Source of the DNA: Flavobacterium sp. KACC 22761
GTDB taxonomy: Bacteria > Bacteroidota > Bacteroidia > Flavobacteriales > Flavobacteriaceae
Direction: 5' to 3'
DNA: 64,000 nucleotides
Assembly (NCBI RefSeq): GCF_034058155.1
Contig: NZ_CP139148.1
Location: 1 to 64,000 of the forward strand
Shown piece by piece: positions 3,948 to 44,223 of the stretch. Within the stretch, counting starts at the first letter, position 1. Each line of letters begins with the position of its first letter. The translations under genes and the position numbers were made by a program. Below the pieces are notes generated by a model, which was not told where the DNA came from, did no database searches, and was given only the letters and a program-made list of their open reading frames with translations.

Positions 3948-3948
3948 T

Positions 3949-4341: not shown

Positions 4342-4346
4342 GCATT

Positions 4347-5297: not shown

Positions 5298-5312
5298 TCA
5301 ATTTAGAATTTG

Positions 5313-5347: not shown

Positions 5348-5465
5348 ATTTCTGGTAATTGGAATTTCTTTCTTAAATTAGGGCTTCAAAAAAAAATGTT
5401 TTGATTTTTCGTTTTTTTTTGAAGTATTTGCCTCTATTTTACAACGCACATTTTAGACATAAACC

Positions 5466-5933: not shown

Positions 5934-5939
5934 TAGTAT

Positions 5940-6120: not shown

Positions 6121-6180
6121 GATATGTTTTGATCGTAGTACAAGTTCAGCAACCTGAAACTTGAAACCTAAAACAAAAAA

Positions 6181-6549: not shown

Positions 6550-6590
6550 TTTTAGATTAATCATTACCGCCATTAACAAAGCATTATTCC

Positions 6591-7487: not shown

Positions 7488-7495
7488 TACGGCAA

Positions 7496-8179: not shown

Positions 8180-8187
8180 TTTATTTT

Positions 8188-8256
8188 GCCACAAATTTCA
8201 CTAATTCTACTAATTTTCATTCACTTAACAAAAATACAATTCGTGTAATTCGTGGC
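8188..8256. repeat. GCCACGAATT-type inverted repeat
   Basis: A GCCACAAATTTCACTAATT arm faces AATTCGTGTAATTCGTGGC across a short spacer. It belongs to the same dispersed family as 24386-24532 and 32359-32497 and lies between two convergent genes, where it may help end transcription. Confidence 0.7.
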
Positions 8257-8264
8257 GAAAAAAA

Positions 8265-15857: not shown

Positions 15858-16652
15858 ATGAAATCTACACTTGCCAAAATCGAAAACATTAAAAAAAATG
15901 GCTACACAATAGATTTTTCTACTGTCTTTGATCATGCTTTCGAAAACTTTAAAAAAATAACACTTTATTCTGCACTTATTCTATTGGTTTTCTCTTTTAT
16001 AGCCGCAGTTGTCGCAGTAACGGTTTTAGGCAATATTTATGGTTTTGAAAATGTAACAAAAGTAGTTCAAGAGAGTTTAAAACCAACAAAATTAACTTTA
16101 GACGAAGCTTTAATTTCTACAGTTGGAGTTTCATTCTTAAGCGCTATTCTTGCACCATTCAGTGCTGGTTTCTACAAAATGGCCGATGCTGCCGACAAAA
16201 ACAATGAATTTAAGGCTTCATACATGTTTAGTTATTATAAAACACCGTTTTTTGCGCCATTATTTGCTTCAACTTTAATTATTACAGCAGTCAATAATGC
16301 CATTGCAAACAGCCTTGAAATAGCTGGTTTTATATTCATTGGAGTAGCAGTTTCGATAACGATTAACTTCTTTATGTATTTTACTGTTCCGCTGATTGTG
16401 TTCGGAAATTTAAAAGCGATAGATGCAATTAAAGGAAGTATAACATTGGTAGCCAAAAATCCTTTATTGATTTTCGGGGTGTTCATTGTTGGAATAATAG
16501 GCTCAATTGTTGGCGTGTTTGCTTGCGGTGTAGGTTTTCTATTTACATACGTTTTTAATACATCTCTGAATTACGCAGCATATTACGATATATTTGACAT
16601 GGAACAAGAAGAAGATTCAATTGACTCTATTGGCCAATCAGATCAAATATGA
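15858..16652 (+). CDS. Multi-pass membrane protein of unknown function
   Basis: A 264-residue protein with about five or six hydrophobic segments (roughly residues 35-60, 95-115, 135-160, 165-190 and 205-235) and a short acidic tail rich in D, E and S. Conserved-looking stretches are TIDFSTVFDHAFENFKKI at the start and the glycine-rich segment GVFIVGIIGSIVGVFACGVGFLF near the end, which is typical of small-subunit-like membrane proteins often found in Flavobacterium without a named function. No catalytic motif is visible. It precedes the hybrid histidine kinase by 90 bases, which could indicate a shared transcript, but nothing ties their functions. Confidence 0.75.
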   Translation: MKSTLAKIENIKKNGYTIDFSTVFDHAFENFKKITLYSALILLVFSFIAAVVAVTVLGNIYGFENVTKVVQESLKPTKLTLDEALISTVGVSFLSAILAPFSAGFYKMADAADKNNEFKASYMFSYYKTPFFAPLFASTLIITAVNNAIANSLEIAGFIFIGVAVSITINFFMYFTVPLIVFGNLKAIDAIKGSITLVAKNPLLIFGVFIVGIIGSIVGVFACGVGFLFTYVFNTSLNYAAYYDIFDMEQEEDSIDSIGQSDQI

Positions 16653-16742
16653 AACTGAATTTCTGAACAAAAAAAAGAGCCTAACCTACTCTTTCAGAAA
16701 TTCGTAAAATGCTATTAACTAAACCGTATATTCCCAAATTTT

Positions 16743-19700
16743 ATGGTAGAAAACTACAGTTTTTATAGTACATTGGATTCAGGAATTGCTTTTATTGGCA
16801 ATACCCTGAAATCAATTATAACAAACTGGTTCGTTTTCAGCCCAGAAGTCATTTTCTATAACAATCCGAAACTTATAGTTTTAGGATTTTCCTTATTTGC
16901 CTTTTTAGGAATCTTAATTTATCAGTTCTTCAGAATCAAAGCTAGAATTGGTTATTTTATTCAGAAGAAAAAAGAGACTGAAACCCTTACCAAAGAATAT
17001 CAACTTTATATTCTCTTTTTTGGAATCGCCGTTATTGTTATTGAGATTATCAATGAAATTTTCAAGATACGACCAAAAAGCCTTTTGATAATAAACTTAA
17101 TCATCGGTTTCAGTGTTTTGGTGATTTACATGCTTACTGACAAAATCAAATATTTTCGCGACCGAATTCAGAACATTTTTATTGTTTCTTTCTTTTTTTA
17201 CATGTCCTATGTAATGCGCAATATCATTAATCTTCCAGATGATGTTCTGCCCATTATTACTTTTTTGATATCTTTTTTCTTTTCCTACAGCGTACTAAAA
17301 CCTATAAAAGTATATTGGGCTTTTGTTGGCTTGGCTTTTCTTTATTTGATATCGACAGTTATTTTTCAATTAATCCCAATAAGATCATCGGTTTTGTTGA
17401 TCAATTTCAGCATTGTCATTTTTATCATAAATCAAGTAAAATATGCTGTTTTGCAAAACAATAAAGACAATTACAGATTTACCAACGAAATTGTTCATAA
17501 AGGAAATTCGCTTACAATAGCAACAAACGAAAACGGAGAACTATTGTTTTGCAGCGAAACAATCACCTCTATTTTAGGTTATCATCCTGATGATGTTATG
17601 GCGCTGGAATTTTGGAAAGTTACCGAAGATTCAGAATTCAATAAAGATAATTATTACAAAAACTATATTGACAACAAGTTATATATCAGAAAATTAAAAA
17701 GTAAAAACGGCGAATACAAATACATACAGTGGAAAGACAAAAAATTTTCTAAAGATCTAATTATCAGTATCGGACAAGACGTTACAGAACAAATTATCGT
17801 TCAAGATCAGTACAAAAACCTGATTCAGACTGCTACTGACATTATTTTTGAAATCAGTATTAACGGCCATTTTACTTTCTTAAATGAATTTGGCTATTCG
17901 ATTTTAGGATATACCGAAAACGAAGTCATAATGCAGCATTATTCAAATTTCATACATGAAGATTACATTCGAAATGCTGTTGATTTTTATGAGAATTTAG
18001 AGAAAAACGAGCTTAATTATCCCACAATAGAAATTCCGATTTTGAAGAAAAACGGAGAAGAATTATGGATTTCTCAAAAAGTTATTGTTCGCAAAAATGA
18101 TTTAGGAACCACTGTAGGTTTTGCCGGAATTGCAAGAGATATTACCGAATTAAAAAATGTCGAAAACGAGAAAAAAAGACGTTTAGAAAAAATCGAATCG
18201 TATAATAATTCCACCAAAAAACTTTCTACAACAAACTTTACCGATTACGACAACATGCAAACCGTGATCGATTATGTAATCAAAGAGGCCGCTTTAGTAT
18301 CAAATGCCAATAGAGTAAGTTTTTGGAGGTTTTCAAATGACGTTATTACCTGTAAAAATTTATTTAGTCGCGACGATCAAACTTTGAGCGACAAAAACAT
18401 TCTCGATAAAGAATCGTATCCAATTTATTTTGAAACGCTTAAAAATAAAGCTATTATAAATGCTCCTGATGTTTTTGACAAACTAGAAACATCAGAATTT
18501 CAAGAAGGTTATTTCACGAAAAACAAAATAAAATCAATGCTTGATGTTCCAATTTTCCTTAACGGACAATTGGCAGGAGTTGCTTGCTTTGAAAGTACAG
18601 GCGAAAAAAGAGAATGGGACAATGAAGACATCAATTATGCCAAAACGATTTCAGATGTAATTTCATTAGCCATTTCTTCACAAATGAGGCTTAAAGCTGA
18701 GAAAAAACTAGAACTTAAAACCGATTTGCTATCTGCAATGGCACTTTGTACCGAAAAGTTTTTATCGAGCAAAGGGCCACAAAAAATGTTTCAGGAAACT
18801 TATGATATTATTGGAAAAGCATCAAAAGCCGATCATATTTTTTATTATGAAAAAGATTTTGAAACCAATACCATCAGCCAGCAATATAAATGGTCAAGAG
18901 AAGGCGTTGTTCACCAAATAACAGAACTTCAAAGATTTACAGATGAAAATCTGAAAGAGATTATTTTTCATTCACAAAGCAAAAGGGTTTTAAGCATGTT
19001 GACCAAAAATCTTGAAGAAACATTTTTCAAGAAATTGCTTGTTGCAAATGACATTAAATCAATTTTAATCCTTCCAATATTTTCAAATGATGTCTTTTCT
19101 GGTTTTATTGGTTTTGATGATTGCACAAAAGAAAGAAGATGGACTGATGATGAAATTTACATCTATCAAACATTAGCCAATAATATTTCCGCGGCTTTAG
19201 ACCGACATCGAAATCAGGCTAAAATCAAGGAAAGTGAAGATGCAATTAAAGCCAAAGAACTTGCCGAAGCAGCAAATAAATCAAAATCTGATTTCTTGGC
19301 CAATATGTCGCACGAAATCCGAACTCCGTTGAATGGAATCATTGGATTTACGCATTTGCTGATGAAAACCAATCTTGAAGAAATTCAGGAAAAATACATG
19401 ACAACCATTAATCAATCGGCACATTCGCTGCTTGAAATTATAAATGACATTCTTGATTTCTCAAAAATTGAAGCTGGAAAACTGGAACTTTATATTGATT
19501 TATATGATCTTCAAAAAATTCTCGGACAAATATTCGATTTAATTATATATGAATCAAATCAAAAAAACCTTCTATTGGAGCTTAACGTTGATCCTAACGT
19601 ACCCAAATACATCTGGACTGATATTGTTCGTTTAAAGCAAATTTTGATCAATCTGCTGTCAAATGCAGTCAAATTTACCAATGAAGGATCAATCAAATTA

Positions 19701-20426
19701 AATGTTTCGGTACTGGATCAAAAATACGACGATCAGTATCTGATTCGTTTTTCGGTTATTGATACCGGAATTGGAATTTTGGAAAAAAATCAGAAGAAAA
19801 TTTTCAAAGCATTTTCTCAGGAAGATAGTTCAACAACGAGAAAATTTGGAGGAACAGGTTTGGGGCTTACAATTTCAAATCAATTATTAGCGTTAATGGA
19901 AAGTCGTTTGCAACTGAAAAGCAAAATCGGCGAAGGAAGTACCTTTTATTTTGATTTGAATTTGAAAACAAGCGAAAATACCGTAAGCGAGAAACTAAAG
20001 GCGCTATCAAACGGACACGAGCCCGAATATGCGCTGAGCTACAATTCGAATGTCAAGAAAATTACCATTTTGATAGTTGAAGACAATAAAGTAAATATGC
20101 TTCTTTTGAAAACCATTGTCAAGAATCTCAATATGAATTCGATTATTTTTGAATGCGAAAATGGTTATGAAGCTGTAAAACAAATTGAAAATATCAATCC
20201 AGATTTGGTTTTCATGGACATTCAAATGCCAATAATGAATGGTTATGAAGCGACAAAAGCCATACGAATTACAGAAATTGGCAAAAATATTCCAATCATT
20301 GCTGTAACAGCCGGCGCAGAAAAAGAAGAAAAGAACAAGTGCATCGCTGCTGGAATGAACGATTATATTTCAAAACCTATTATCAGAGGCACTGTAGAAG
20401 AAGCGTTACGAAAATGGCTAAAATAA
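16743..20426 (+). CDS. Hybrid sensor histidine kinase with membrane, PAS, GAF and receiver domains
   Basis: A 1227-residue sensor. The first 240 residues hold about seven membrane segments; then come two PAS domains (about 245-350 and 355-475, [13 protein letters not shown] and [13 protein letters not shown]), two GAF domains (about 490-650 and 660-820, RVSFWRF and [19 protein letters not shown]), a HisKA domain with [14 protein letters not shown] and the phospho-accepting histidine at 857, an ATPase domain ([25 protein letters not shown]) and a receiver domain with the phosphorylated aspartate at 1159 in VFMDIQMP. No separate response regulator lies nearby, so output would go through an HPt or DNA-binding partner elsewhere. 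The signal is unknown. Confidence 0.94.
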
Positions 20427-20519
20427 TTCAAAACTTAATCGCTCTTATCGCCTCAATATTGGTAAAAAATATATAAATTCGTACTAATAAAAACATAATA
20501 AGTTTAAATCTAGCATACT

Positions 20520-21368
20520 ATGAAATGGCAAGGCAGAAGGCAAAGTGATAATGTTGAAGACCGAAGAGGAATATCTGGCGGAAAAGTCGCTATTGGCGGA
20601 GGAGTTATCGGAATCATTATTTTGCTATTAAATGTTTTTGGCGGCGAAACTGGTCAAGCTGTAGGATCAGCATTGGAACAAATGCAAGGCGGACAGCAGC
20701 AAACAGAAGCAGCAGCACCGTTAAGCAAGGAAGATGAGGAAATGGGAAATTTTGTAAGAACAATGCTTGCATACAATGAAGATACTTGGAACAAAATTTT
20801 TGAGGAACATGGAATGACATACAAAAATCCAAAATTAGTCCTTTTTAGAGGTTCTGTTCAAACAGCCTGTGGTGGAGCCTCATCTGCATCGGGTCCCTTT
20901 TATTGTCCCGGAGATCAAAAAGTTTATATGGATTTGGGGTTCTTTGAAGAACTTAAAAATAAGTTTGGCGCCAAAGGAGGCGACTTTGCCATTGCATACG
21001 TTATTGCGCATGAAATTGGTCATCACGTACAAACCTTGCTTGGCACTTCGGCAAAAATGCGTGAGGCGCAAGAAGGAAAAAGTGAAGTTGAAGCCAATAA
21101 ACTTTCTGTTGCTTTAGAACTTCAAGCTGACTTTTACGCGGGAGTTTGGGCTCATGATCACCAGCAAGAACTTGAAACTGGGGACATTGACGAGGCATTG
21201 AGTGCAGCGAATGCTGTAGGTGATGATGCCATTCAAAGCAAAATGCAGGGACACGTCGTTCCAGATTCCTTTACGCATGGATCGTCTGAACAAAGAATGT
21301 ACTGGTTTAAAAAAGGTTTTAAAACCGGAGACATTAGGCAAGGCACTACATTTGAAGAAATTCGATAA
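20520..21368 (+). CDS. Neutral zinc metallopeptidase (YpfJ/KPN_02809 family)
   Basis: A 282-residue protein with one N-terminal membrane segment (about 24-40) preceded by the charged family start KWQGRRQSDNVEDRRG, so the peptidase domain faces the periplasm. The zinc site HEIGHHVQ is at about residues 164-171, and the third ligand region is probably in LELQADFYAGVW. The conserved segments SGPFYCPGDQKVYMDLGFF and GSSEQRMYWFKKGF complete the family pattern. Substrates of this group are not known. It is separated from the kinase by 93 bases and followed by a strong terminator at 21401-21426. Confidence 0.93.
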   Translation: MKWQGRRQSDNVEDRRGISGGKVAIGGGVIGIIILLLNVFGGETGQAVGSALEQMQGGQQQTEAAAPLSKEDEEMGNFVRTMLAYNEDTWNKIFEEHGMTYKNPKLVLFRGSVQTACGGASSASGPFYCPGDQKVYMDLGFFEELKNKFGAKGGDFAIAYVIAHEIGHHVQTLLGTSAKMREAQEGKSEVEANKLSVALELQADFYAGVWAHDHQQELETGDIDEALSAANAVGDDAIQSKMQGHVVPDSFTHGSSEQRMYWFKKGFKTGDIRQGTTFEEIR

Positions 21369-32507: not shown

Positions 32508-33518
32508 TCAACAAATTCGTGGCAACTGTTCTCCAACCAAAGGATTCACCACTCTTTTGCCTCCAAAAGCGCTTTCAATAATTATTTTTGATGGATGTTC
32601 GGCAGTAACAAAACCAATTTCTGATGCATTTGGATTTATCTTTTGCAGAATCTCCAATACTTCATCTTTGATTTCGGGCGCTGTAACACAAACAAAAATT
32701 CCTTCATTAGCCACATACAGCGGGTCTAAACCTAATAATTCGCAGGCACTTTTTACCTGATTTTCGACTTTTATATTTTCATCCAAAAGCGAAATTCCTA
32801 AATTAATTTCTGTCGTTATTTCGTGTAGCACCGAAGCCAGTCCGCCACGGGTGGCATCTCTTAAAAAATGAATTTTATTTCCGAATCGCTCAATTAAATC
32901 TAAAACTGTATGGTTCAAACTGGTTGTGTCGCTCAAGATATCGCTTTCAAATTCCAATCCTTCGCGTTCCGACATTATTGCCATTCCGTGCGAAGCAATT
33001 GGGCCGTTTATGATTACAATATCATTTTCCTTAATGTTTTGAGTTTTAATGTTGGCTTTTTCATGAAGAACACCAATTCCCGAAGTGTTGATATAAATTT
33101 TATCGCCTTTTCCTCTTTCGACTACTTTTGTGTCTCCAGTAACGATTTGAACATTGGCTTTGTCTGCAGTTTGTTTTATTGATTTAATGATTTCTGTAAA
33201 CTCATCTAAACCAAAACCTTCTTCAATAATTAAAGCCAGCGAAAGGTATTTTGGAACTGCACCGCACATCGACAAATCATTTACAGTACCGTTTACTGCC
33301 AGCTCACCAATATTTCCGCCTTTAAAAAATACCGGCGAAATAACATAACTATCAGTCGAAAAAGCCAGATTTCCTTGTAAATTTAAAAATGCACCATCAT
33401 GGCGGACTTCTAAAATATCATTTTTCAGAATCTTAAAAATTACTTCATTGAGGAGTTTAGTCATATGTTCACCGCCACTTCCGTGGTGCAGATGAATTAC
33501 TTCCTGTTTTTTTTCCAT
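32508..33518 (-). CDS. hypE: Hydrogenase expression/formation protein HypE
   Basis: A 336-residue enzyme that, with HypF, builds the cyanide ligands of the [NiFe] active site: HypF puts a carbamoyl group on the C-terminal cysteine of HypE, which then dehydrates it to a thiocyanate. The C-terminus ends exactly in PRIC, with Cys336 as the acceptor. The N-terminus HLHHGSGGEHMTKLLNEV and the ATP-binding region (AFSTDSYVISPVFFKGGNIG, VTGDTKVVERG) match the AIR-synthetase fold. It is the last gene of the leftward hypA-hypB-hypC-hypE unit, nine bases after hypC. It is full length and should be active. Confidence 0.97.
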   Translation of the reverse strand: MEKKQEVIHLHHGSGGEHMTKLLNEVIFKILKNDILEVRHDGAFLNLQGNLAFSTDSYVISPVFFKGGNIGELAVNGTVNDLSMCGAVPKYLSLALIIEEGFGLDEFTEIIKSIKQTADKANVQIVTGDTKVVERGKGDKIYINTSGIGVLHEKANIKTQNIKENDIVIINGPIASHGMAIMSEREGLEFESDILSDTTSLNHTVLDLIERFGNKIHFLRDATRGGLASVLHEITTEINLGISLLDENIKVENQVKSACELLGLDPLYVANEGIFVCVTAPEIKDEVLEILQKINPNASEIGFVTAEHPSKIIIESAFGGKRVVNPLVGEQLPRIC

Positions 33519-33527
33519 CTCACAGTT

Positions 33528-33764
33528 TTAAATCTCTTCGCCCATTTGTTTTAAAACCTCCATTGTCCTTTTTGCTTCGGCTTCATCAATAATTCCAATC
33601 GCTGCGCCTACATGAACCAAAAGATAATCGCCCACTTTTGCTTCGGGAACCAAAGCTAAATTGACTTCTTTAATAATGCCTTCAAAAGAAACATTTCCAA
33701 TTCTAAAAGTTTCATCAAGCTCTGCTGTCACTTTTTCAAGTCGGCCGGGAACTGCTAAACACAT
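33528..33764 (-). CDS. hypC: HypC/HybG/HupF-family hydrogenase assembly chaperone
   Basis: A 78-residue chaperone that carries the Fe(CN)2CO unit with HypD and delivers it to the large subunit. The start MCLAVPGRLEKV is diagnostic: Cys2 binds iron, so the ATG at 33764 must be the true start, not the in-frame one 13 codons upstream. The second part contains VGDYLLVHVGAAIGIIDEAEA, as in all HypC proteins. hypB ends two bases before its start and hypE begins nine bases after its end, so translation is probably coupled. Confidence 0.96.
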   Translation of the reverse strand: MCLAVPGRLEKVTAELDETFRIGNVSFEGIIKEVNLALVPEAKVGDYLLVHVGAAIGIIDEAEAKRTMEVLKQMGEEI

Positions 33765-33766
33765 AC

Positions 33767-34615
33767 TTATTTTTTTATAGATTGGGTTAAATAATCGTAC
33801 CAAGCCGATAAGCCTTCGCCAGAAGTTGCTGAAACTTCAAAGAAAGTCAAATGCGGATTTACTTTTTTTGCATATTCTTTCAGTTTCTCCAAATCAAATT
33901 TCAAATACGGCAATAAATCAATTTTATTGATGATGCAGATTTGCGATCCCGAAAACATATCAGGATATTTCAGCGGTTTATCTTCGCCTTCGGTAACTGA
34001 AATAATCACGATTCGTTTTAATTCTCCTAAATCAAACATGGCAGGGCAAACCAGATTTCCAACATTTTCAATCATTAAAACAGAATCCTGAACCGGTTTT
34101 AGTTCTTTTACTGCTCTTGATATCATTTCGCTGTCTAAATGGCAACCTTTTCCAGTATTAATCTGAATTACGGGAACATTTAATTTATGAATCCTGTCGG
34201 CATCATTTGTGGTTTGCTGGTCGCCTTCGATTACAGAAAAAGCAATTTTATCTTTTAAATCAGAAATGGTTCTCTCTAATAAAGAAGTTTTTCCGGAACC
34301 CGGCGAGCTTACCAAATTGACAGAAAAAATATTCAAAGCTTCAAAAAAACCTCTGTTTCTCTCGGCAGTAAGCTGGTTTTTGTACAAAATATCTTTTTCA
34401 AGCTGTACTACGCTAATTTCATGAGAATGCGAATGATTATGGAAATGATCATGATGGTGTTCGTGATCATCGTGATCATGGTCATGGTCAAAATGATGAT
34501 CGTGATGGTGATCGTGGCTATGATAATGACCGGAATGAGAATGCAGTTGCTTCTCTCCTATTTTAGTAAACCTGATTTCGTTTTCATCAGAACTGCAACC
34601 GCAAGTGGTACACAT
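33767..34615 (-). CDS. hypB: Hydrogenase nickel incorporation GTPase HypB with His-rich domain
   Basis: A 282-residue GTPase that inserts nickel into the hydrogenase large subunit together with HypA. The N-terminus MCTTCGCSS carries the CxxCGC high-affinity nickel site. Residues 25-65 contain 22 histidines, a nickel-storage stretch. The GTPase domain starts with SSPGSGKTSLLE (Walker A, GSGKT at 106-110) and has the metal loop GKGCHLDSEM and the specificity motif NKIDLLPY. Length is normal for His-rich HypB. hypA ends six bases upstream. The His-rich form can store nickel by itself, which matters because no SlyD with a metal-binding tail is seen here. Confidence 0.97.
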   Translation of the reverse strand: MCTTCGCSSDENEIRFTKIGEKQLHSHSGHYHSHDHHHDHHFDHDHDHDDHEHHHDHFHNHSHSHEISVVQLEKDILYKNQLTAERNRGFFEALNIFSVNLVSSPGSGKTSLLERTISDLKDKIAFSVIEGDQQTTNDADRIHKLNVPVIQINTGKGCHLDSEMISRAVKELKPVQDSVLMIENVGNLVCPAMFDLGELKRIVIISVTEGEDKPLKYPDMFSGSQICIINKIDLLPYLKFDLEKLKEYAKKVNPHLTFFEVSATSGEGLSAWYDYLTQSIKK

Positions 34616-34621: not shown

Positions 34622-34963
34622 CTATTTTATGATTATTTTCTTTATTTTTAATTCTTTGCCCGAGATTATCTCTTTAAACTGACTGTTGCAATTGGGGCAA
34701 CTATCAAAAGTTTTTTCGATATGAAATTCGGTTTCACATTCGGCACAGCGGGCTCGTCCGATTGGCTCTTCAACAAATAATTTTGTTTGGGCTAAAACAT
34801 TTCCATTAATACATTGTGGCCATACAAAATAAAAGGAATCCATTTCGACTCCTGATAATTTTCCTATCTCCAGATAAAGTTCCAGAACACTTTTCCCTTT
34901 TATTTTATCTACTTCTTGCTGGACAATTTTAACAATTGAAGTAACTACAGAAAGCTCATGCAT
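34622..34963 (-). CDS. hypA: Hydrogenase maturation nickel metallochaperone HypA
   Basis: A 113-residue nickel chaperone. The start MHELSVVTSIVK is required because His2 is the nickel ligand, so the ATG at 34963 is chosen over an in-frame ATG five codons upstream. The zinc site is formed by two CxxC pairs, CAEC and CPNC, in the C-terminal half. It works with HypB in the cytoplasm. It is the first gene of the leftward hyp unit and divergent from the structural genes across 169 bases that contain a Crp/Fnr-like palindrome. Confidence 0.96.
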   Translation of the reverse strand: MHELSVVTSIVKIVQQEVDKIKGKSVLELYLEIGKLSGVEMDSFYFVWPQCINGNVLAQTKLFVEEPIGRARCAECETEFHIEKTFDSCPNCNSQFKEIISGKELKIKKIIIK

Positions 34964-35132: not shown

Positions 35133-36266
35133 ATGAGTATGGAAGATAAAATAAAAGTCAATGAAACCTATTATAACAGTATTGAACGACAAGGCTATAG
35201 TAGGAGAGATTTTTTAAAATTTACAGCCTACATTGGAGCCTATATGGGAGTTCAAAGTTCTGCTATTGGCCAAATAGCTAAAGCGCTAGAAACAACTCCG
35301 CGTCTTCCGGTAATTTGGGAACACTTTCAGGAATGTACCTGCTGCAGCGAATCTTTTATTCGATCTGATCATCCTATTGTGGCTGATATTATTTTAGACA
35401 AAATATCTTTAGATTATACTTTAACCTTAATGGCTGCTTCTGGTCATCAGGCTGAAGCTGCTAAAAAAGCAACAATGGATAAATACAAAGGTGAATATAT
35501 CCTTTGTGTTGAAGGTTCTGTACCAATGGGAGCCGACGGAAATTATTGTTGTATAGGCGGAAGAAGCGCTATTGATATCCTAAAAGAATCTGCCAAAGGA
35601 GCAAAAGCTATCATTGCCTGGGGAAGCTGTGCTACAACCGGATGTGTACAGGCAGCAAAACCAAATCCTACTGGAGCTGTACCTATCAATAAAATTATTA
35701 CAGATAAACCTATAATAAATGTTCCGGGCTGCCCGCCAATTGGCGAAGTTATGGCCGGAATTATTGTACACGTGGTTGCTTTTGGAAAACTACCTGAATT
35801 AGACAGTTCCAACCGTCCTAAAGCTTTTTATTCTAAAAGAGTTCACGACAGCTGTTACCGAAGACCTTATTTTGATGCCGGATTATTTGCCGAAAATTTT
35901 GATGATGAAAACGCTAAAAAAGGGTATTGTTTATACAAAGTGGGCTGTAAAGGGCCAAGCACTTACAATGCCTGTGGCAATATGAAATGGAATGGCGGGG
36001 TTAGTTATCCAATTCAATCGGGTCACGGTTGTTTAGGATGTAGTGCCAAAGACTTTTGGGATGCAGGAAGTTTTTATTCAAGAGATGCTTCTATAAATGG
36101 AGGAAGCATCGAAGCAAATGCCGATACTCTTGGCAAAATCGCTCTTGGAGGGGTTGTTGCCGGAATTGGAGCCCATGCTATAATTTCGAATGTATCAAAA
36201 AGAAAAGAGCTAAAACACCGAATTAATCAGGGAACTGAAAACGAGAAACACTTAGAGGATTTATAA
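35133..36266 (+). CDS. hyaA: [NiFe]-hydrogenase small subunit, O2-tolerant group 1 type
   Basis: A 377-residue iron-sulphur subunit. A Tat signal SRRDFLK is at residues 23-29, and cleavage after AKA (about 51) would leave a mature chain beginning LETTPRLPVIW. Cysteines at 68, 70, 71, 166, 171 and 200 correspond at a constant offset of 51 to Cys17, 19, 20, 115, 120 and 149 of O2-tolerant membrane-bound hydrogenases (E. coli Hyd-1, Ralstonia MBH); the extra ones (70 and 171) mark a [4Fe-3S] proximal cluster. Ligands for the medial and distal clusters lie in HDSCYRR, GYCLYKVGCKGPSTYNACG and GHGCLGC. A C-terminal membrane anchor is at about 332-352. The enzyme oxidises H2 outside the inner membrane. 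Confidence 0.97.
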   Translation: MSMEDKIKVNETYYNSIERQGYSRRDFLKFTAYIGAYMGVQSSAIGQIAKALETTPRLPVIWEHFQECTCCSESFIRSDHPIVADIILDKISLDYTLTLMAASGHQAEAAKKATMDKYKGEYILCVEGSVPMGADGNYCCIGGRSAIDILKESAKGAKAIIAWGSCATTGCVQAAKPNPTGAVPINKIITDKPIINVPGCPPIGEVMAGIIVHVVAFGKLPELDSSNRPKAFYSKRVHDSCYRRPYFDAGLFAENFDDENAKKGYCLYKVGCKGPSTYNACGNMKWNGGVSYPIQSGHGCLGCSAKDFWDAGSFYSRDASINGGSIEANADTLGKIALGGVVAGIGAHAIISNVSKRKELKHRINQGTENEKHLEDL

Positions 36267-36283: not shown

Positions 36284-38020
36284 ATGGCAAAGAGAATAGT
36301 TGTAGACCCAATTACCAGAATAGAAGGACATTTAAGAGCTGAAGTTGAAATTTCAGACGGAACTATAAAAGAAGCCTTTTTATCATCGACAATGGTGAGA
36401 GGTTTGGAGAATATTGTTAAAGACAGAAATCCAAAAGATGTTTGGGCATTTGTACAAAGAACCTGTGGTGTTTGCACCTCAACTCATGCTACAGCATCTG
36501 TAAGAGCTGTTGAAGATGCACTCGGAATTGTTGTTCCGCCCAATGCAGAAATAGTTAGAAATATAATGCTTGGAGCTTTGTATTTACACGATCACGTAGT
36601 TCATTTTTATCATTTGCATGCTTTTGACTGGGTAGATGTTATAAGTGGTTTAAATGCTGATCCTGTAAAGACTTCACAACTGGCGCAATCTATTTCAAAT
36701 TGGCCAAAAAGTTCACCGGGTTATTTTTCTGATTTGCAAAAACGATTGAAAAAGTTCGTTGCCAGTGGTCAATTAGGGATTTTTGCCAATGGCTATTGGG
36801 GACATCCGCAAATGAAATTACCGCCAGAAGCCAATTTAATGGCTACAGCGCATTATCTTGAAGCTTTGGAATGGCAAAAAGAAATCGTAAAAGTACATGC
36901 TATTTTTGGAGGTAAAAATCCGCATCCTAACTTTTTGGTTGGTGGCATGGCATGTTCAATAAATCTGGATGATGCAAGCGGGCTAAATGCTGAAAGACTT
37001 GCCTTTGTAAGACAGCTTTTGGAGGACGGAAAACGTTTTGTAGAACAAGTTTATCTTCCGGATGTTCTTGCTATTGCAGGTTTTTATAAAGACTGGGGCG
37101 CTATTGGAGGCTTTCATAATTTTATGAGTTTTGGTGATTTCCCAACACAAGGGCATAATAATACTAATAATGACACTTTTAAATTTCCGTCGGGAGTCAT
37201 TTTAGACAAAGATTTGACAAAAGTCCATGATTTAGATTTAAGAGATTTAAAAACTGTCGAAGAATATGTAAACAACTCTTGGTATGATTATGAAGGCGAT
37301 GGAAATTCAGGAAGACAACCTTGGTCTGGAGAAACAAAAATCAATTATACTGGACCAAAACCGCCTTACACGCATTTAAATGTTGATGAAAAATACAGTT
37401 TTATCAAAACTCCAAGATGGAAAGGCCACGCTATGGAAGTTGGTCCACTGGCAAGAATGCTGGTTGGTTATGCATCCGGAAGGGAAGAATTTAAAGAAAT
37501 TGTCGATTCTACCTTATCAAAATTACAAATTCCTGCTGGAGCTTTATTCTCAACTTTAGGAAGAACTGCAGCACGAGCGCTCGAATCGCAATTGGTAGCC
37601 AACTGGAATCTTGAGTTTTTTGATGATTTGATTAAAAACATCAAAAACGGCGATACTAAAATGGCCAATATGGAAAAATGGGAAACAACAACTTGGCCAA
37701 AAGAAGCACAAGGTGTTGGTCTTGTAGAAGCTCCACGTGGTGCTTTAAGCCATTGGATTGTAATAAAAGATGCAAAAGTTGCCAATTATCAGCAGGTCGT
37801 GCCATCAACATGGAATGCTTCACCGAAAGATCCTAAAGGTCAGCGATCTCCTTACGAAAGCACTTTGTTGAATACTCCAATTGCAAATCCAGAATTGCCT
37901 TTAGAAATTATCAGAACCATACATTCCTTTGATCCATGCATTGCCTGTGCAGTGCATTTATACGATGAAAATGGCGACATTATTAAAGAAGTAAATGATA
38001 TAACAATCTGCACCGTTTAA
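36284..38020 (+). CDS. hyaB: [NiFe]-hydrogenase large subunit
   Basis: A 578-residue catalytic subunit with the nickel-iron site. The N-terminal motif RTCGVCTSTHA provides Cys61 and Cys64, and the C-terminal motif DPCIACAVH provides Cys552 and Cys555. After His558 a 20-residue tail remains, which the maturation protease would remove once nickel is in place. The N-terminus KRIVVDPITRIEGHLRAEVE is typical of group 1 enzymes. It has no signal of its own and would be exported bound to the Tat-targeted small subunit. The gene starts 17 bases after hyaA and ends six bases before the cytochrome gene. Confidence 0.98.
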   Translation: MAKRIVVDPITRIEGHLRAEVEISDGTIKEAFLSSTMVRGLENIVKDRNPKDVWAFVQRTCGVCTSTHATASVRAVEDALGIVVPPNAEIVRNIMLGALYLHDHVVHFYHLHAFDWVDVISGLNADPVKTSQLAQSISNWPKSSPGYFSDLQKRLKKFVASGQLGIFANGYWGHPQMKLPPEANLMATAHYLEALEWQKEIVKVHAIFGGKNPHPNFLVGGMACSINLDDASGLNAERLAFVRQLLEDGKRFVEQVYLPDVLAIAGFYKDWGAIGGFHNFMSFGDFPTQGHNNTNNDTFKFPSGVILDKDLTKVHDLDLRDLKTVEEYVNNSWYDYEGDGNSGRQPWSGETKINYTGPKPPYTHLNVDEKYSFIKTPRWKGHAMEVGPLARMLVGYASGREEFKEIVDSTLSKLQIPAGALFSTLGRTAARALESQLVANWNLEFFDDLIKNIKNGDTKMANMEKWETTTWPKEAQGVGLVEAPRGALSHWIVIKDAKVANYQQVVPSTWNASPKDPKGQRSPYESTLLNTPIANPELPLEIIRTIHSFDPCIACAVHLYDENGDIIKEVNDITICTV

Positions 38021-38026: not shown

Positions 38027-38800
38027 TTGAACAGTATGCCAACAAAAACTAACGATTATAAAAGAGCTTACATATGGCAGTTGCCCATACGAATTTTTCA
38101 TTGGGTAAATGCCTTGGCCATTACAGGACTTGTAGCTACAGGTTTTATTATTGGTGATCCGCCGGGAATTATTTCTAATAAAGAAGCTTCTGGACAATTC
38201 TGGTTTGGATACATTCGGGAGATTCATTTTATATGTGCTTACTTATTGGTTGCAGTTATGATCTTAAGAATATATTTTGCTTTCAAAGGAAATAAATATG
38301 CAAGCTGGCGTGTCTTTTTCCCTTTTAAAAAAAATGGATTTAAAAGAATGTGGCATGTAATTAAATATGATATTTTTCTGCAAAATGAACAATCGTCCGA
38401 TTCTCCTGTTGGCGCCGTAGGTCATAATAGCGTAGCGGCGGTATCTTATCTGGTCATGTTTTTTATGGCACTTATAATGATTGCTACAGGATTTGCAATG
38501 TACAAACCCAATTCTACTTGGTTTTTACCTAAAATGTTTGGGTGGGTTGTAAACCTGGTTGGAGGAGATTTAAATGTTAGAATGATCCATCATTTTACTA
38601 CCTGGACCTTTATTTTATTTGCAGTAGTACACGTTTATCTGGTTTTCTTTCATGATTGGCTGGAAGGCTTTGGAGAAACATCGGCTATGGTGAGCGGTTA
38701 CAAATTTGTTCCTACTGAAAGAGTCAAGAATGAAGAAATTGAACTTTCTGAAATAAAAACAATAAATCAAGATTCGCTGGAGACAAAAGATGTTAGTTGA
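38027..38800 (+). CDS. hyaC: Ni/Fe-hydrogenase b-type cytochrome subunit
   Basis: A 257-residue membrane cytochrome with four predicted membrane segments and histidines suitable for two b hemes: FHWVNALAITGL (first segment), HFICAYLLVAVMIL (second) and HHFTTWTFILFAVVHVYLVFFHDW (last). It anchors the hydrogenase and passes electrons from the distal iron-sulphur cluster to the quinone pool, here menaquinone. The family start YIWQLPIRIFHWVNA is clear. It is slightly longer than E. coli HyaC, with an acidic C-terminal tail of about 30 residues. Spacing to neighbours is six and eight bases, so this is one operon. Confidence 0.95.
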   Translation: MNSMPTKTNDYKRAYIWQLPIRIFHWVNALAITGLVATGFIIGDPPGIISNKEASGQFWFGYIREIHFICAYLLVAVMILRIYFAFKGNKYASWRVFFPFKKNGFKRMWHVIKYDIFLQNEQSSDSPVGAVGHNSVAAVSYLVMFFMALIMIATGFAMYKPNSTWFLPKMFGWVVNLVGGDLNVRMIHHFTTWTFILFAVVHVYLVFFHDWLEGFGETSAMVSGYKFVPTERVKNEEIELSEIKTINQDSLETKDVS

Positions 38801-38808: not shown

Positions 38809-39315
38809 ATGGAAACAGAATTCAGTACAAGAAAAATAGACGAATTCCATTCTGATGGAAATACCATTTTAGTTCTCGGAATAGGTAACTATTTAATGGG
38901 CGACGAAGGTGTCGGTGTACATTTTATCAACAGAATAGATAAGACCCTATTTCCAGAAGGCATTTCCTTTGTTGATGGCGGAACTGGTGGTTTTACCTTA
39001 ATTCCATACATCGAAAGTCATCAAAAAGTAATTATTGTAGATGCTACAATGGATGGAAAAGAAGAAGGAACAATTTCACTTTTGAAACCACGTTTCTCAG
39101 AAGATTTTCCTATTTCGCTAAGCGGGCACAATTTTGGACTTAAGGATATGGTCGAAATCTTGTCGATGCTCGATACCATGCCCGAAATCTATTTATACAC
39201 CATTACCATTTTAAAAATGGAGCCAATGTGCATGCAACTTTCACCAAAAGTAGAAGCTTCAATAGAAAAAGTAACTGCTGAAATTATCCAACTGATAGAA
39301 AAAATTAAAATTTAA
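38809..39315 (+). CDS. hyaD: Hydrogenase maturation protease (HyaD/HupD family)
   Basis: A 168-residue endopeptidase that removes the C-terminal tail of the large subunit after nickel insertion. The start LVLGIGNYLMGDEGVGVHFI (about 21-40) contains the conserved nickel-sensing glutamate at 33, VIIVDATMDG holds the aspartate and SLSGHNFGLKDM the histidine, the three metal-binding residues known from HybD. It is cytoplasmic and specific for its large subunit, which fits its place directly after the structural genes. hypF starts 11 bases on. Confidence 0.95.
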   Translation: METEFSTRKIDEFHSDGNTILVLGIGNYLMGDEGVGVHFINRIDKTLFPEGISFVDGGTGGFTLIPYIESHQKVIIVDATMDGKEEGTISLLKPRFSEDFPISLSGHNFGLKDMVEILSMLDTMPEIYLYTITILKMEPMCMQLSPKVEASIEKVTAEIIQLIEKIKI

Positions 39316-39326: not shown

Positions 39327-41600
39327 TTGACACCTACATTTCAAATAACCATTTCAGGCATTGTACAAGGTGTTGGTTTTCGTCCTTTTGTATACAATTT
39401 AGCAATTCAATACAACTTGAAAGGATTTGTTTCTAATAATGAATTTGGTGTTGTCATAGTTATTCAAAAAGAGAAAAAAATAATAAACGAATTTATTTTT
39501 GATATAAAAAAAAGGCATCCTAAAAAAGCTAAAATTAATACCATACAGATTTCAGAAATCCAAATAGAGGAAAGATTTAACCTTTTTTTTATCAAAGAAC
39601 CAGAAAAAGGAATTTCAATCAATGCGCCTTTAACTCCCGATTTCGCTATCTGTAAAAACTGTAAAGAAGAGATTTTAAACCCGGAAAATAGTCGTTACTA
39701 CTATCCTTTTATTAGTTGCACTTCATGCGGACCACGCTATGCTATTGCTGAAAAATTTCCTTTTGAAAGAGAAAACACAAGCATGAACACTTTTAAAATG
39801 TGCGAAACTTGTCTGGAAGAATACAACAATCCTGGGGATATTCGGTTTCATTCTCAAACCAATTCATGTCCGGAGTGTGGAATTCAAATTTCATTTACAG
39901 ATCATAATGGAACCCATATTTCTGGAACAAACAAAGAAATTTTTGAATTTGTTTCGGAAAAATTAAACGAAGGAAAAATCATTGCCCTAAAAAATACTTC
40001 GGGTTATTTGCTTCTTTGCGATGCCACAAATGCCAAAACTGTTCAGGAATTACGAAACCGAAAAAAGCGTTCAACAAAACCTTTTGCCGTATTATTTCGC
40101 GATTTTAAACAAATTAAAAAACATTTATTTTGTCATAAAACCGAAAAAAAATGGCTAAAATCAACTCAGGCGCCCATTGTAATTTTACCTCTGAAAAATC
40201 AAAAAGATTTGGCGGTAAACCAAATAGCTCCAAACATGAAAACTATCGGAGCAATGTTGCCCAATTCAGGAATGTTGTATTTAATTTCTAATGAGTTTCA
40301 AAAGCCTTTAATTGCAACGAGTGGTAATTTTAATGGTTCGGCTATTTTTTCTGATCAAAATGAAGCTGTTGCATCATTAAATTCTATAGCCGATTATTTT
40401 TTGCATCATAACTTAGAAATTCAAAATTCGCAAGATGATTCGGTCATTCGTTTTTCGGGAAAACATAAGCAAAAAATTGTTTTAAGAAGTGCGCGAGGTT
40501 TTGCTCCAAATTTGGATTATTCCTATCCCGAAAAAACCTCTGAAAAAATACTTTGTTTGGGTGCGTCTTTAAAAAATACGATTACCATCACTTCAAATCA
40601 GCAGATTAACAAGAGTGAATATATTGGTAATTTATTTAATTATGATGCTTATAAACGGTTTGAAAAGAAGATAAAAAACTATCAACGCTTTTTTGATTTT
40701 GTTCCAAAAACCATTGTTTATGACCAACATCCAAATTACGAAAACAATAAAATTGTTTCTGAATTTCAAAAGGAAGATTCAACCTTAAACGCTATAAAAA
40801 TTCAGCATCATGAAGCTCATTTTTCTGCAATTTTGAGCGAAAAAAATCTTTGGCAAAAATCAAAAATATTGGGCGTTATCTGGGACGGAACCGGTTTTGG
40901 AAGCGAAAACCAAATTTATGGCGGAGAATTTTTTGAATACCATCACAAACAAATTACCCGAATAGGACATTTGGATTATTATTCCTGGATTTTAGGAGAT
41001 AAAATGCCCCAAAACCCTAAAATGACAGCACTTTCTATCAGCGAAAATGATACTTATTTTCAACAGTATTTCAGTCAAAATGAGTTGAAAATTTATCCAA
41101 ACCTCATTAAAAACAGCGCTATTAAAACATCTTCAATGGGAAGATTAGTCGATGCGGTGGCTTTTACACTTGGCTTTCAAGATGCTGTTTCGTTTGAAGG
41201 CGAAACTGGTATGTATCTGGAAAATCTGGCTCAAAAAGCATTTAATAAACCAAACTTGAAATTAAAGGATTATCTGAAAAACGAAAACATAACCAATATA
41301 ATCCCAACAAAAAAATTGCTTTTGCAGATTGTTAAAGCTGTAGAAAAGAATACCAAACCGGAAAAAGTGGCTTTAAACTTTCATTATACTTTGGTAAAGT
41401 GCATTGAAAAAGTGGCTTTATTTTCAAAATCAAAAGAAATTGCTTTTAGCGGAGGCGTTTTTCAAAACTCGGTGTTGGCTGATTTAATCATAGATTACCT
41501 GAAACCGAATTACAAATTACATTTTCATGAAATACTTTCTCCAAATGACGAAAACATCTCATTTGGACAGCTCAATCATTATTTACATCTAAAAAAATAA
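39327..41600 (+). CDS. hypF: Carbamoyltransferase HypF
   Basis: A 757-residue enzyme that makes the carbamoyl group for cyanide ligand synthesis from carbamoyl phosphate. Domain order is as usual: acylphosphatase (1-90, VQGVGFRPF at 13-21), two zinc fingers (about 105-190; CKNC, CTSCGPRYA, CETC, CPECG), a YrdC-like nucleotide-binding domain (about 200-385, GKIIALKNTSGYLLLCDA and RKKRSTKPFAVL) and a Kae1-like domain (about 405-757, HHEAHFSAIL, GVIWDGTGFG and AFSGGVFQN). The start is a TTG that directly precedes the conserved N-terminus; no ATG is available. The FKBP gene begins three bases after its stop. Confidence 0.96.
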   Translation: MTPTFQITISGIVQGVGFRPFVYNLAIQYNLKGFVSNNEFGVVIVIQKEKKIINEFIFDIKKRHPKKAKINTIQISEIQIEERFNLFFIKEPEKGISINAPLTPDFAICKNCKEEILNPENSRYYYPFISCTSCGPRYAIAEKFPFERENTSMNTFKMCETCLEEYNNPGDIRFHSQTNSCPECGIQISFTDHNGTHISGTNKEIFEFVSEKLNEGKIIALKNTSGYLLLCDATNAKTVQELRNRKKRSTKPFAVLFRDFKQIKKHLFCHKTEKKWLKSTQAPIVILPLKNQKDLAVNQIAPNMKTIGAMLPNSGMLYLISNEFQKPLIATSGNFNGSAIFSDQNEAVASLNSIADYFLHHNLEIQNSQDDSVIRFSGKHKQKIVLRSARGFAPNLDYSYPEKTSEKILCLGASLKNTITITSNQQINKSEYIGNLFNYDAYKRFEKKIKNYQRFFDFVPKTIVYDQHPNYENNKIVSEFQKEDSTLNAIKIQHHEAHFSAILSEKNLWQKSKILGVIWDGTGFGSENQIYGGEFFEYHHKQITRIGHLDYYSWILGDKMPQNPKMTALSISENDTYFQQYFSQNELKIYPNLIKNSAIKTSSMGRLVDAVAFTLGFQDAVSFEGETGMYLENLAQKAFNKPNLKLKDYLKNENITNIIPTKKLLLQIVKAVEKNTKPEKVALNFHYTLVKCIEKVALFSKSKEIAFSGGVFQNSVLADLIIDYLKPNYKLHFHEILSPNDENISFGQLNHYLHLKK

Positions 41601-41603: not shown

Positions 41604-42230
41604 ATGGATATTCTTGAACTATTAGGACATGTTGGCAAAACAGAAGAAAAAGATAAAATTTCCTATTCGGCAGGAGTTGTAATGGCTTTAAGCCTGAAGG
41701 ACATTGGCTTTGAAGAAATTAAATACGAAGATTTTACAGATGGAATGAAATCTGTTTTTGAGAAATCGGGAGAGAAAATTTCGCCAAAACGTTCTATTGA
41801 TATTTTTAATAATTATGTGGCATTGCTACAGGAAGAATTAAAGGTTAAAAATGCTGAAATTGGAAGTGCGTTTCTAACTAAAAATGCCTTAAAAGAAGGA
41901 ATTAATGTTTTGCCAAGCGGTTTGCAATACGAAATCTTAACCGAAGGAAATGGCAAAAAACCAAAAATTACTGATACCGTAAATGTAATTTATGAAGGTT
42001 ATTTATTGAACAAAGATGTCTTTGATTCAACTAAAGATACAGGCCCTCAGACAATGAAAGTACTGCAAACCATAAAAGGCTGGCAGGAAGCACTGCAATT
42101 AATGCCCGAAGGTTCTCGCTGGAAAGTTTATATTCCGCATGATTTGGCTTACGCCGAAATGGGAGCTCCACCAGTAATTCAGCCCAACTCTACTTTGGTA
42201 TTTATAATTGAACTTTTAAATATTGTTTAA
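41604..42230 (+). CDS. FKBP-type peptidyl-prolyl isomerase within the hydrogenase operon
   Basis: A 208-residue protein with an N-terminal helical dimerisation domain like that of Mip/FkpA (about 1-90, KISYSAGVVMALSLKDIGF) and a C-terminal FKBP domain (about 100-208; VIYEGYLLNKDVFDST, IKGWQEALQLMPEGSRWKVYIPHDLAYAEMG, PNSTLVFIIELLNI). It lacks a signal peptide, unlike the periplasmic Mip/FkpA proteins, so it is cytoplasmic. It starts three bases after hypF and is followed by hypD, so a role in hydrogenase maturation is likely. In E. coli the isomerase SlyD assists HypB; this protein might replace it (inference), although it has no metal-binding His tail. Confidence 0.9.
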   Translation: MDILELLGHVGKTEEKDKISYSAGVVMALSLKDIGFEEIKYEDFTDGMKSVFEKSGEKISPKRSIDIFNNYVALLQEELKVKNAEIGSAFLTKNALKEGINVLPSGLQYEILTEGNGKKPKITDTVNVIYEGYLLNKDVFDSTKDTGPQTMKVLQTIKGWQEALQLMPEGSRWKVYIPHDLAYAEMGAPPVIQPNSTLVFIIELLNIV

Positions 42231-42421
42231 GAGCCATATACATAAAAACTATTTCCAGGAAAACTGTTTTAGCCTAAAGTGTTTTTATGTGCAAAAATTA
42301 AAAAATCCGCATAATCCGTGTTTTCGCGATAGCGAATCCGTATAATCCGCTTCTAAAATTATAGGTTTGATTATAAGGAAAGGTTAAGTGAATTAGTATA
42401 TAACTCGAAATGTAATTTAAA

Positions 42422-43498
42422 ATGAAATACCTGTCTGAATATCGAAATCCCGAACTGGTCAAACATTATATAAATGAAATCCATAAAATAACCACAAAGC
42501 CATGGAATATCATGGAAATTTGTGGTGGTCAGACACATTCATTGGTCAAAAACGGATTGCTGGATTTATTGCCAAAAAATATCAGAATGATCCATGGTCC
42601 AGGCTGTCCGGTTTGTGTTACGCCTATTTCGTTAATCGATAAAGCTATCGAGTTACTGAAACAAGATGTAATTCTTTGTTCATTTGGCGATATGATTCGG
42701 GTTCCCGGTTCCTCAAAAAGTTTACTGCAAGCCAAAGCCGAAGGAGGCGATTTGCGTATTTTATATTCGCCTTTGGAAGCTATAAATATTGCCACAAAAA
42801 ACCCGGATAAAGAAGTGGTGTTTTTTGCCGTTGGTTTTGAAACCACAGCGCCCAGCAATGCACTGGCAGTACTTCATGCGCAAAAACTGGGTTTGACTAA
42901 TTTTAGTTTATTGGTTTCGCATGTATTAGTTCCGCCAGCAATGGAAGCCATTTTATCAGATGAGTTTTGCAACATAAATGCTTTTTTAGGCGCCGGACAT
43001 GTGTGTACAATAGTTGGTCTGGAAGAATATTACCCGATTGCCGAAAAATATAAAATTCCGATTGTAGTTTCAGGGTTTGAACCTGCCGATATGGTTCAGG
43101 CTATTTATCATGCTGTTTTACAACTAGAACAAGGAAAATATGAGGTTGAAAACCAATATACCAGATTAGTAAAGGAAGAAGGAAATATTCGGGCAAAAGA
43201 GGTTGTAAATACTGTTTTTACAATAGGAAGTCAGGAATGGCGAGGCATTGGAGCAATTGAAAACAGCGGACTTGTATTGAGAGAAAACTACAAAATGTAT
43301 GATGCCAATACTAAATTTTCTATAGAAACTACTACTAGCAAAACCGACAATTTGTGTATTGCCGGTCAGATTTTAACCGGAAATAAAAAACCGAATGAAT
43401 GTCCTGAGTTCGGAAAAAAATGTAAACCTTCAAATCCGCTTGGAGCACCTATGGTTTCTTCTGAAGGGGCTTGTTCTGCTTACTTCAACTATTTATAA
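42422..43498 (+). CDS. hypD: Hydrogenase formation protein HypD
   Basis: A 358-residue iron-sulphur scaffold protein that, with HypC, assembles the Fe(CN)2CO unit. Seen are MEICGGQTHSLVKNG (about 30-44), the active segment IHGPGCPVCVTP with Cys residues, FFAVGFETTAPSNALAV, the regions LCSFGDMIRVPGS and ECPEFGKKCKPSNPLGA for the [4Fe-4S] cluster, and the C-terminus SSEGACSAYFNYL. It is full length. A 191-base gap with a small ATCCGTATAATCCGC repeat lies upstream, so it may have its own promoter although no clear box is seen. The nickel permease gene begins eight bases after its stop. Confidence 0.97.
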   Translation: MKYLSEYRNPELVKHYINEIHKITTKPWNIMEICGGQTHSLVKNGLLDLLPKNIRMIHGPGCPVCVTPISLIDKAIELLKQDVILCSFGDMIRVPGSSKSLLQAKAEGGDLRILYSPLEAINIATKNPDKEVVFFAVGFETTAPSNALAVLHAQKLGLTNFSLLVSHVLVPPAMEAILSDEFCNINAFLGAGHVCTIVGLEEYYPIAEKYKIPIVVSGFEPADMVQAIYHAVLQLEQGKYEVENQYTRLVKEEGNIRAKEVVNTVFTIGSQEWRGIGAIENSGLVLRENYKMYDANTKFSIETTTSKTDNLCIAGQILTGNKKPNECPEFGKKCKPSNPLGAPMVSSEGACSAYFNYL

Positions 43499-43506: not shown

Positions 43507-44223
43507 ATGATTGGATTATTAATTACCATTTATGCCGGGCTCGAGCATGCTTTTGAAACAGACCATTTGCTGGCTGTCAACAATCTGGTTACGAACAGAA
43601 CCAAAATTAAAGACGCTTTAAAAGACGGAATGTTTTGGGGAATTGGCCATACTTCGACAATTTTTATTGTAGGCGTTATTATGATTGGTTTTAAGATTTC
43701 GATAAGCGAAAACATTTTTAATTATCTCGAAGCGGTTGTTGGTTTGATGTTAATTATTTTAGGAAGCTATCGTTTGTTTAAATTATTATACAAAAAAAAA
43801 CATTCCCATACTTATTATCACAGTCACGAACACACGCACAGCAACGGGGTCACCCATACGCACATGCACGCACACACCTATTTTCATTCACATCCTATTG
43901 CTTCCTTTGAACATTCTCATTTTGACGAATCAACAAATTATAAAACTGCATTTGGTGTAGGCCTCGTTCATGGATTGGCCGGAAGCGGGTCTTTAGTCGT
44001 TTTGGTTATTTCGCAAATGAAAACACCTTTGGAAGGTTTGCTTTATATTTTAATTTTTGGAATTGGATCGATAATAGGAATGTTTATAGCGTCAGGATTG
44101 TTTAGTATTCCTTTTACTAAGAGTATTCTAAAATCTCAAAAATTACAGTATGTTTTAATTATAATTTCTTCTGTAATATGTATCGTTTACGGAGCCAAAA
44201 TTATTTATAACAATTTGTTTTAA
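43507..44223 (+). CDS. Nickel permease (NiCoT/RcnA-like) with His-rich loop
   Basis: A 238-residue inner-membrane transporter with about six membrane segments. The first has the nickel/cobalt signature HAFETDHL (H-x4-D-H, about residues 13-20), and VHGLAGSGSLVVLVI (about 156-170) is a second conserved membrane motif. A cytoplasmic loop at about 98-140 is packed with histidines (HSHTYYHSHEHTHS and on). It would supply nickel for the hydrogenase. The ATG at 43507 follows the hypD stop; an in-frame ATG 12 codons upstream would overlap hypD and add a non-family N-terminus, so it is rejected. Confidence 0.88.
   Translation: MIGLLITIYAGLEHAFETDHLLAVNNLVTNRTKIKDALKDGMFWGIGHTSTIFIVGVIMIGFKISISENIFNYLEAVVGLMLIILGSYRLFKLLYKKKHSHTYYHSHEHTHSNGVTHTHMHAHTYFHSHPIASFEHSHFDESTNYKTAFGVGLVHGLAGSGSLVVLVISQMKTPLEGLLYILIFGIGSIIGMFIASGLFSIPFTKSILKSQKLQYVLIIISSVICIVYGAKIIYNNLF

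Follow-up and report, generated by a model that had tools for sequence, protein, structure and literature searches.

Introduction

Hydrogenase operons with a six-cysteine small subunit carry additional accessory genes, HyaE/HoxO and HyaF/HoxQ. The FKBP described in this study resembles these in being an extra accessory gene of such an operon (compare the E. coli hya operon), but belongs to a different protein family. Mip is, like this protein, a two-domain FKBP, yet it is exported, whereas the protein studied here is cytoplasmic by sequence and linked to a hydrogenase.

FKBPs are already known in hydrogenase maturation through SlyD (parts of PMC10653786 and PMC7055735 concerned with this protein), which in Helicobacter pylori is also described as binding the Tat signal peptide of a hydrogenase subunit (respective parts of PMC11198818 and PMC10653786). 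Both SlyD and the present protein are of the FKBP family and linked to NiFe hydrogenase maturation, but in SlyD a chaperone domain is inserted and a metal-binding tail is frequent, though many SlyDs lack the tail, whereas in our protein the dimer domain is separate and N-terminal and the gene is part of the hyp operon. Closer in architecture are FklB/FKBP22 of E. coli and Shewanella SIB1, which combine FKBP_N and FKBP_C in 206-208 aa, likewise have no signal peptide, and share the conserved dimer tyrosine and the catalytic W and F; the hydrogenase-linked protein differs from them by a conserved 14-residue extension, a highly conserved N-domain, relaxed groove residues and its location in a hydrogenase operon. 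The FklB results given in PMC7353009 ascribe a part in partner binding to the N-domain tyrosine of the E. coli protein and a part in its activity to W158 and F198, mutants of Y15, W158 and F198 having lost partners and/or activity, and the part of PMC3179164 on Shewanella FKBP22 states that its N-domain dimerises and is required for full activity on proteins.

Little is known about which proteins bacterial FKBPs act on, and for a dedicated FKBP the pathway is evident when its gene lies in a hydrogenase operon. Two questions can thereby be put to the test: which targets an FklB-type dimer binds, and at which stage folding limits the maturation of an O2-tolerant-type hydrogenase. The gene is also a candidate for co-expression when these hydrogenases are produced in other hosts. 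A full-text search of the open literature, with most subscription journals outside it, did not find a dedicated operon-encoded FklB-type FKBP; while FKBPs aiding hydrogenase maturation are known, a dedicated FklB-type FKBP of the hydrogenase operon appears to be new. Here we propose, with a probability of roughly 0.6, that an FKBP of FklB/FKBP22 type was captured between hypF and hypD and then became a dedicated biogenesis factor of a six-cysteine uptake hydrogenase.

Results

An FklB-type FKBP in the hydrogenase locus

The window, the whole stretch of 64,000 nucleotides that was analysed, contains a locus that reads hypE-hypC-hypB-hypA on the minus strand and small subunit, large subunit, cytochrome b, protease, hypF, FKBP, hypD and NicO-like permease on the plus strand (Table 1). 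The name hypE is presumed from family knowledge and operon position, and the six-cysteine signature of the small subunit (CTCC, GSCATTGC) is taken to be the mark of O2-tolerant enzymes.

Table 1 Features of the hydrogenase locus in the window.
Feature	Coordinates	Strand	Remarks
AIR-synthase-like protein, hypE position	32508..33518	-	AIRS domains
hypC	33528..33773	-	
hypB	33767..34615	-	histidine-rich N-terminus (22 His in first 75 residues)
hypA (nickel chaperone)	34622..34963	-	relatively faster evolution in FKBP-bearing loci
Hydrogenase small subunit	35133..36266	+	twin-arginine signal; six-cysteine proximal-cluster signature
Hydrogenase large subunit	36284..38020	+	
b-type cytochrome subunit	38027..38800	+	
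Large-subunit maturation protease, HyaD/HybD type	38809..39315	+	
hypF	39327..41600	+	directly upstream of FKBP; gap 0-119 bp in 17 fetched loci with both
Hydrogenase-linked FklB-type FKBP	41604..42230	+	residues 1-14 conserved extension, ~15-100 dimer domain, ~101-208 catalytic
Spacer	42231..42421	.	191 bp, AT-rich (30% GC), 15-nt inverted repeat and short repeat-like stretch
hypD	42422..43498	+	parted from hypF by FKBP in source genome
Probable nickel permease, NicO-like	43507..44223	+	below Pfam cut-off

The FKBP ORF starts with ATG and encodes 208 aa, which match FKBP_N (E 1.2e-16) and FKBP_C (E 1.8e-23), both exceeding the curated cut-offs and the only Pfam matches at E<=0.001. Among relatives of solved structure, full-length Mip chains top the list (E around 1e-39, best 1.2e-39, residues 14-207), while the best NCBIfam model is NF008602 (PRK11570), which we take to be FklB, with 128.5 bits and therefore under the curated cut-off of 198. 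Neither a signal peptide nor a lipobox was seen on inspection by eye of the N-terminus MDILELLGHVGKTEEKDKISYSAG, which is not odd, FklB of E. coli being cytoplasmic with the same architecture, and the C-terminus (...IIELLNIV) is without a His/Cys-rich metal-binding tail. The protein is classed here as a predicted cytoplasmic two-domain prolyl isomerase of FklB/FKBP22 type. An earlier sequence-only reading of this DNA had described an FKBP with a dimer domain and without a signal peptide between hypF and hypD, and the ORF, the Pfam domains and the N-terminus agree with this; its designation as Mip/FkpA-like is understandable from the best solved relatives, but FklB/FKBP22-like is the better description, and the three-base spacing that it gave is correct on the hypF side (3 bp) but not on the hypD side, where the source genome has 191 bp.

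The core catalytic residues Y130, F140, D141, W160, Y183 and F200, presumably Y26, F36, D37, W59, Y82 and F99 in FKBP12 numbering, are invariant in 41/41 aligned rows and in the whole subfamily set (23/23), and the dimer tyrosine Y21 of the N-domain is likewise invariant in all 41 rows; in the alignment Y21, W160 and F200 correspond to Y15, W158 and F198 of FklB. The linked subfamily has drifted at four groove positions (151, 156, 159 and 184) at which 36-37 of 37 relatives carry F, V, G and G; with several groove residues relaxed in this way, the protein may not be a fully active isomerase.

In five near relatives (L008, L009, L010, L011 and L013) the hypF-FKBP gap is 3 bp and the FKBP-hypD gap 1 bp. 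The FKBP-hypD spacer of the source genome holds AATCCGCATAATCCGTGTTTTCGCGATAGCGAATCCGTATAATCCGC, which is single copy in the window and whose core is absent from the fetched loci of every other organism. As a further observation, the protease contains LSGHNFG, against LSVHDVG in the rows viewed from FKBP-free sister loci, defining two subtypes with the same split as the FKBP.

Position across loci and a probable single insertion

Loci were fetched by large-subunit similarity, taking the best 80 of 518 matches. The large subunit reaches at least 82% identity in 22 of the 80 loci, and 17 of these 22 carry the FKBP right behind hypF. The genome of L012 has it on a separate contig ahead of hypD, and that of L029 (G704, a metagenome-assembled genome, MAG) at 8966-9595 of L205, a 12-kb stretch without a hyp gene; for L014, L022 and L027, whose contigs end before or inside hypF, a close FKBP was not found genome-wide. 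The hydrogenase of G704 lies on the other contig (L029), where the fetched locus is without hypF, hypD and the protease, and its FKBP is a copy kept without linkage, though the genome is a MAG.

The 58 loci with a large subunit of at most 76% identity showed no FKBP match at E<=1e-4, and for 40 of them a genome-wide FKBP search gave a best full-length match of 45% identity. In all 43 FKBP-free sister loci showing both hypF and hypD the two genes are 0-288 bp apart, too close to accommodate the FKBP, and an insertion of the gene between them is the simplest account; 15 of the 58 do not show both, and the genome-wide search covered these 15 except L032, L062, L075 and L079. The FKBP stays beside hypF where hypD is 2.9-5.2 kb off (L024, L025 and L028) or 0.9 kb off (L026), all of these being Cloacibacterium/Chryseobacterium loci. 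In L025 (Cloacibacterium rupense) the FKBP-hypD interval, 16154-20658, contains the nickel regulator NikR (profile match) after the FKBP, followed by a TonB-type receptor and a gene resembling a chloride channel (both by eye).

In a tree of FKBPs (quick method, no bootstrap) the linked proteins form one clade with SH-aLRT 100 and a long stem. The large-subunit tree, also obtained by a quick method and including 7 of the 19 phylum-sample sequences (11 others are on the minus strand and L167 has an in-frame stop), unites the FKBP-bearing loci in one clade with SH-aLRT 100, into which L014, L022 and L027 also fall, and a single change of FKBP state suffices, those three loci being uncounted. The FKBP is one subfamily, which would most simply have been gained once between hypF and hypD.

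Co-occurrence with the hydrogenase in surveyed genomes

Genome surveys were carried out at three levels; genus (Flavobacterium) and family names of the surveyed genomes are inferred from named relatives, and the samples overlap with the 80 fetched loci and are not independent of them. Among 299 genomes of the genus the large subunit was present in 15, and the FKBP, at 65-100% identity, in those same 15, compared to 0 of 284 genomes without the large subunit (Fisher p 1.4e-25, kinship disregarded). After the fifteenth FKBP the E value falls from 2.7e-85 to 5e-31, with the other listed matches at 52% identity or less, while FKBP-type proteins as such are widespread in the genus (match at E<=1e-15 in 284/299 genomes). 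The survey of the order (395 genomes) yielded the FKBP at 63% identity or more in four genomes, hydrogenase genes adjoining in 4/4, and relatives at only 42-47% identity in a further 25; an FKBP of at least 60% identity without hydrogenase was found in none of the 299 genus and 395 order genomes. Across the phylum (395 genomes), 99 have the large subunit at E<=1e-60, in loci of less than 5 kb that leave the hyp region outside, but a high-identity FKBP occurs solely in the source genome and G499, both having a large subunit of at least 94% identity, so that the FKBP implies this hydrogenase type and not the reverse. The FKBP protein search itself gave 1325 homologues, of which the best 120 were listed, 34 of these 120 constituting set A1. 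The FKBP lies in the hydrogenase gene set and, across the genomes searched, was confined to those possessing the hydrogenase genes, so that a specialised role in assembling the enzyme is probable; the co-occurrence is partly the inheritance of one cassette, given close linkage and one common origin.

Selection and domain conservation

The dN/dS of the FKBP against five near relatives is 0.07-0.10, compared to 0.11-0.18 for hypF in the same pairs, and exceeds that of the two catalytic subunits and of hypD and hypE in these five pairs; values of 0.03-0.13 in other pairs also denote purifying selection. Comparing the two domains at similar catalytic-domain divergence, the alignments indicate that the N-terminal dimer domain of the linked FKBP is about twice as conserved as that of other FKBPs: among pairs with catalytic-domain identity of 0.5-0.7, mean identities are 0.61 (N) and 0.64 (C) for linked pairs (n=181), but 0.32 and 0.60 for unlinked pairs (n=613). 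In the linked subfamily overall both domains are conserved alike (0.68 and 0.69), whereas the N-domain was more conserved than the catalytic domain in 0/666 pairs of unlinked FKBPs of the same architecture (means 0.33 and 0.61). The comparison covers 37 of 55 unlinked FKBPs (full-length), with the L122 and L189 rows representing a neighbouring paralogue, and 23 linked rows that include the standalone G704 copy. Unlinked FKBPs free of a signal peptide (n=4) also have N below C in 6/6 pairs, with a smaller gap in the close pair L120/L121 (0.67 and 0.81). Of the 24 subfamily-specific residues, 17 fall within the first 74 positions.

Discussion

A dedicated role of the FKBP, which the sequence-only reading had proposed as a possible hydrogenase maturation factor, is well supported by its co-occurrence in the genus (15/15 versus 0/284), its conserved position, the single subfamily and purifying selection. 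We propose that the ancestor of the Flavobacterium-Cloacibacterium six-cysteine uptake hydrogenase type would have acquired the FKBP, most simply once; that the protein may form the V-shaped dimer of its family, the dimer tyrosine being conserved; that the conserved N-terminal domain may dock on one fixed partner in the hydrogenase maturation machinery; and that the C-terminal domain would supply chaperone and isomerase help. More specifically, we tentatively picture a hydrogenase-specific factor that came once to an already complete HypA-F set, acts at nickel insertion into the large subunit and owes its specificity to a fixed N-terminal docking surface, not to the isomerase groove.

As family members, HypA and the maturation protease have their roles at nickel insertion and directly afterwards, and because their rates differ in FKBP-bearing loci, the client is tentatively placed around this step. 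Relative to the large subunit, HypA evolves at 3.39 in FKBP-bearing and 2.71 in FKBP-free loci (interval 0.41-1.00, which disregards relatedness and is too narrow) and the protease at 2.58 versus 2.28, while HypF, HypD, HypE, HypB, HypC and the small subunit showed no difference; in the rows viewed the faster HypA still keeps its MHE start and the cysteine pairs. We regard this rate shift as a lead only. The client would most likely be the large-subunit precursor or the HypA/HypB complex around nickel insertion, an assignment that we make with low confidence; the Tat small subunit and HypF/HypD are less probable clients. Clade-specific prolines in ten hydrogenase and Hyp proteins (one gained, in the large subunit, and two lost among 61 fixed differences) did not indicate a client.

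The sequence-only reading had suggested that the FKBP may replace HyaE/F at the small subunit. That it substitutes for HyaE/HyaF in assembling the six-cysteine small subunit, or in its Tat proofreading, is unlikely. The premise is correct: neither HyaE (PF07449) nor HupH_C/HyaF (PF04809) has a match at E<=0.001 in the complete, single-contig 5.04-Mb source genome, so that no copies exist elsewhere by this search, and both models detected their targets in the E. coli control. In favour of such a role, SlyD is likewise an FKBP and recognises Tat signal peptides (PMC11198818 and PMC10653786, in the parts dealing with SlyD). SlyD binds these signals via its inserted domain, not seen in the FKBP. 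In the genomes of 50 of the 80 loci, FKBP-bearing and FKBP-free alike, HupH_C was found in 0/50, and HyaE gave eight weak matches, four above the family cut-off, all confined to one shared C-terminal section of the model and in ORFs of 107-128 aa; the five available as loci each contain a thioredoxin WCGPC protein. HyaE/F are thus generally missing from these loci, whether or not the FKBP is present. The small subunit is of the six-cysteine type in 57/57 FKBP-free sister loci with a readable small subunit, and because such loci are without HyaE, HyaF and FKBP alike, a replacement is unlikely; the unchanged relative rate of the small subunit in both clades also argues against it. Judging from the surveys, these Bacteroidota assemble their six-cysteine hydrogenases without HyaE/HyaF. 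That the FKBP acts in the place of SlyD at the nickel step of HypB, also raised in that reading, is doubtful. Pointing towards it, SlyD is an FKBP that binds HypB (PMC10653786, in its part on SlyD), and the source genome, FKBP gene included, has no match to the SlyD profile (NF008008) at E<=0.001. HypA, which evolves faster in FKBP-bearing loci, is the partner of HypB. In a search of the source genome and the genomes of 31 of the 80 loci, SlyD-like proteins are rarer with the FKBP (3/15 versus 11/17; Fisher p 0.016, kinship disregarded; none over the curated cut-off, one further borderline FKBP-free match left out). This hint is weak and confounded by genus, which SlyD absence follows, and three Cloacibacterium-group genomes carry both a SlyD-like protein and the FKBP. 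For its role E. coli SlyD is furthermore reported to rely on the chaperone domain and on a C-terminal region that binds nickel (PMC10653786 and PMC7055735, in the relevant sections), whereas the FKBP matches FKBP_N and FKBP_C only and has no His-rich tail; HypB at this locus has its own His-rich region, and an H. pylori slyD mutant is described as retaining hydrogenase activity (PMC10653786, same part).

A general-purpose FKBP that only happens to lie in the cassette and is passed on with it would fit the single subfamily, the tight linkage and the frequency of FKBP-type proteins in the genus, but is unlikely in view of the purifying selection, the subfamily-specific constraint on the N-domain, the absence of copies of at least 60% identity from the hydrogenase-free genomes among the 299 of the genus and 395 of the order, the persistence beside hypF in the Cloacibacterium/Chryseobacterium loci with a distant hypD, and the one genome that retains the FKBP unlinked. 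A counter-point to the dedicated factor that we favour is that the sister six-cysteine hydrogenases manage without the FKBP. Clustering of the ORFs common to FKBP-free loci revealed, by eye, no candidate for a missing maturation factor; the commonest extra clusters, TPR-like (22 loci) and aminoacyl-transferase-like (21 loci), lie outside the hyp genes.

Seven FKBP-free loci (L041, L042, L045, L046, L054, L080 and L085) contain, at about 2000-8300 between hypB and hypA, what seems to be a second hydrogenase set of NAD type, with distant large-subunit matches on the minus strand and diaphorase-like and protease-like ORFs; in the clustering this set comprises eight loci. In L167 (G636) the large subunit has one in-frame stop and the genome an unlinked FklB-like FKBP, and this hydrogenase is possibly decaying.
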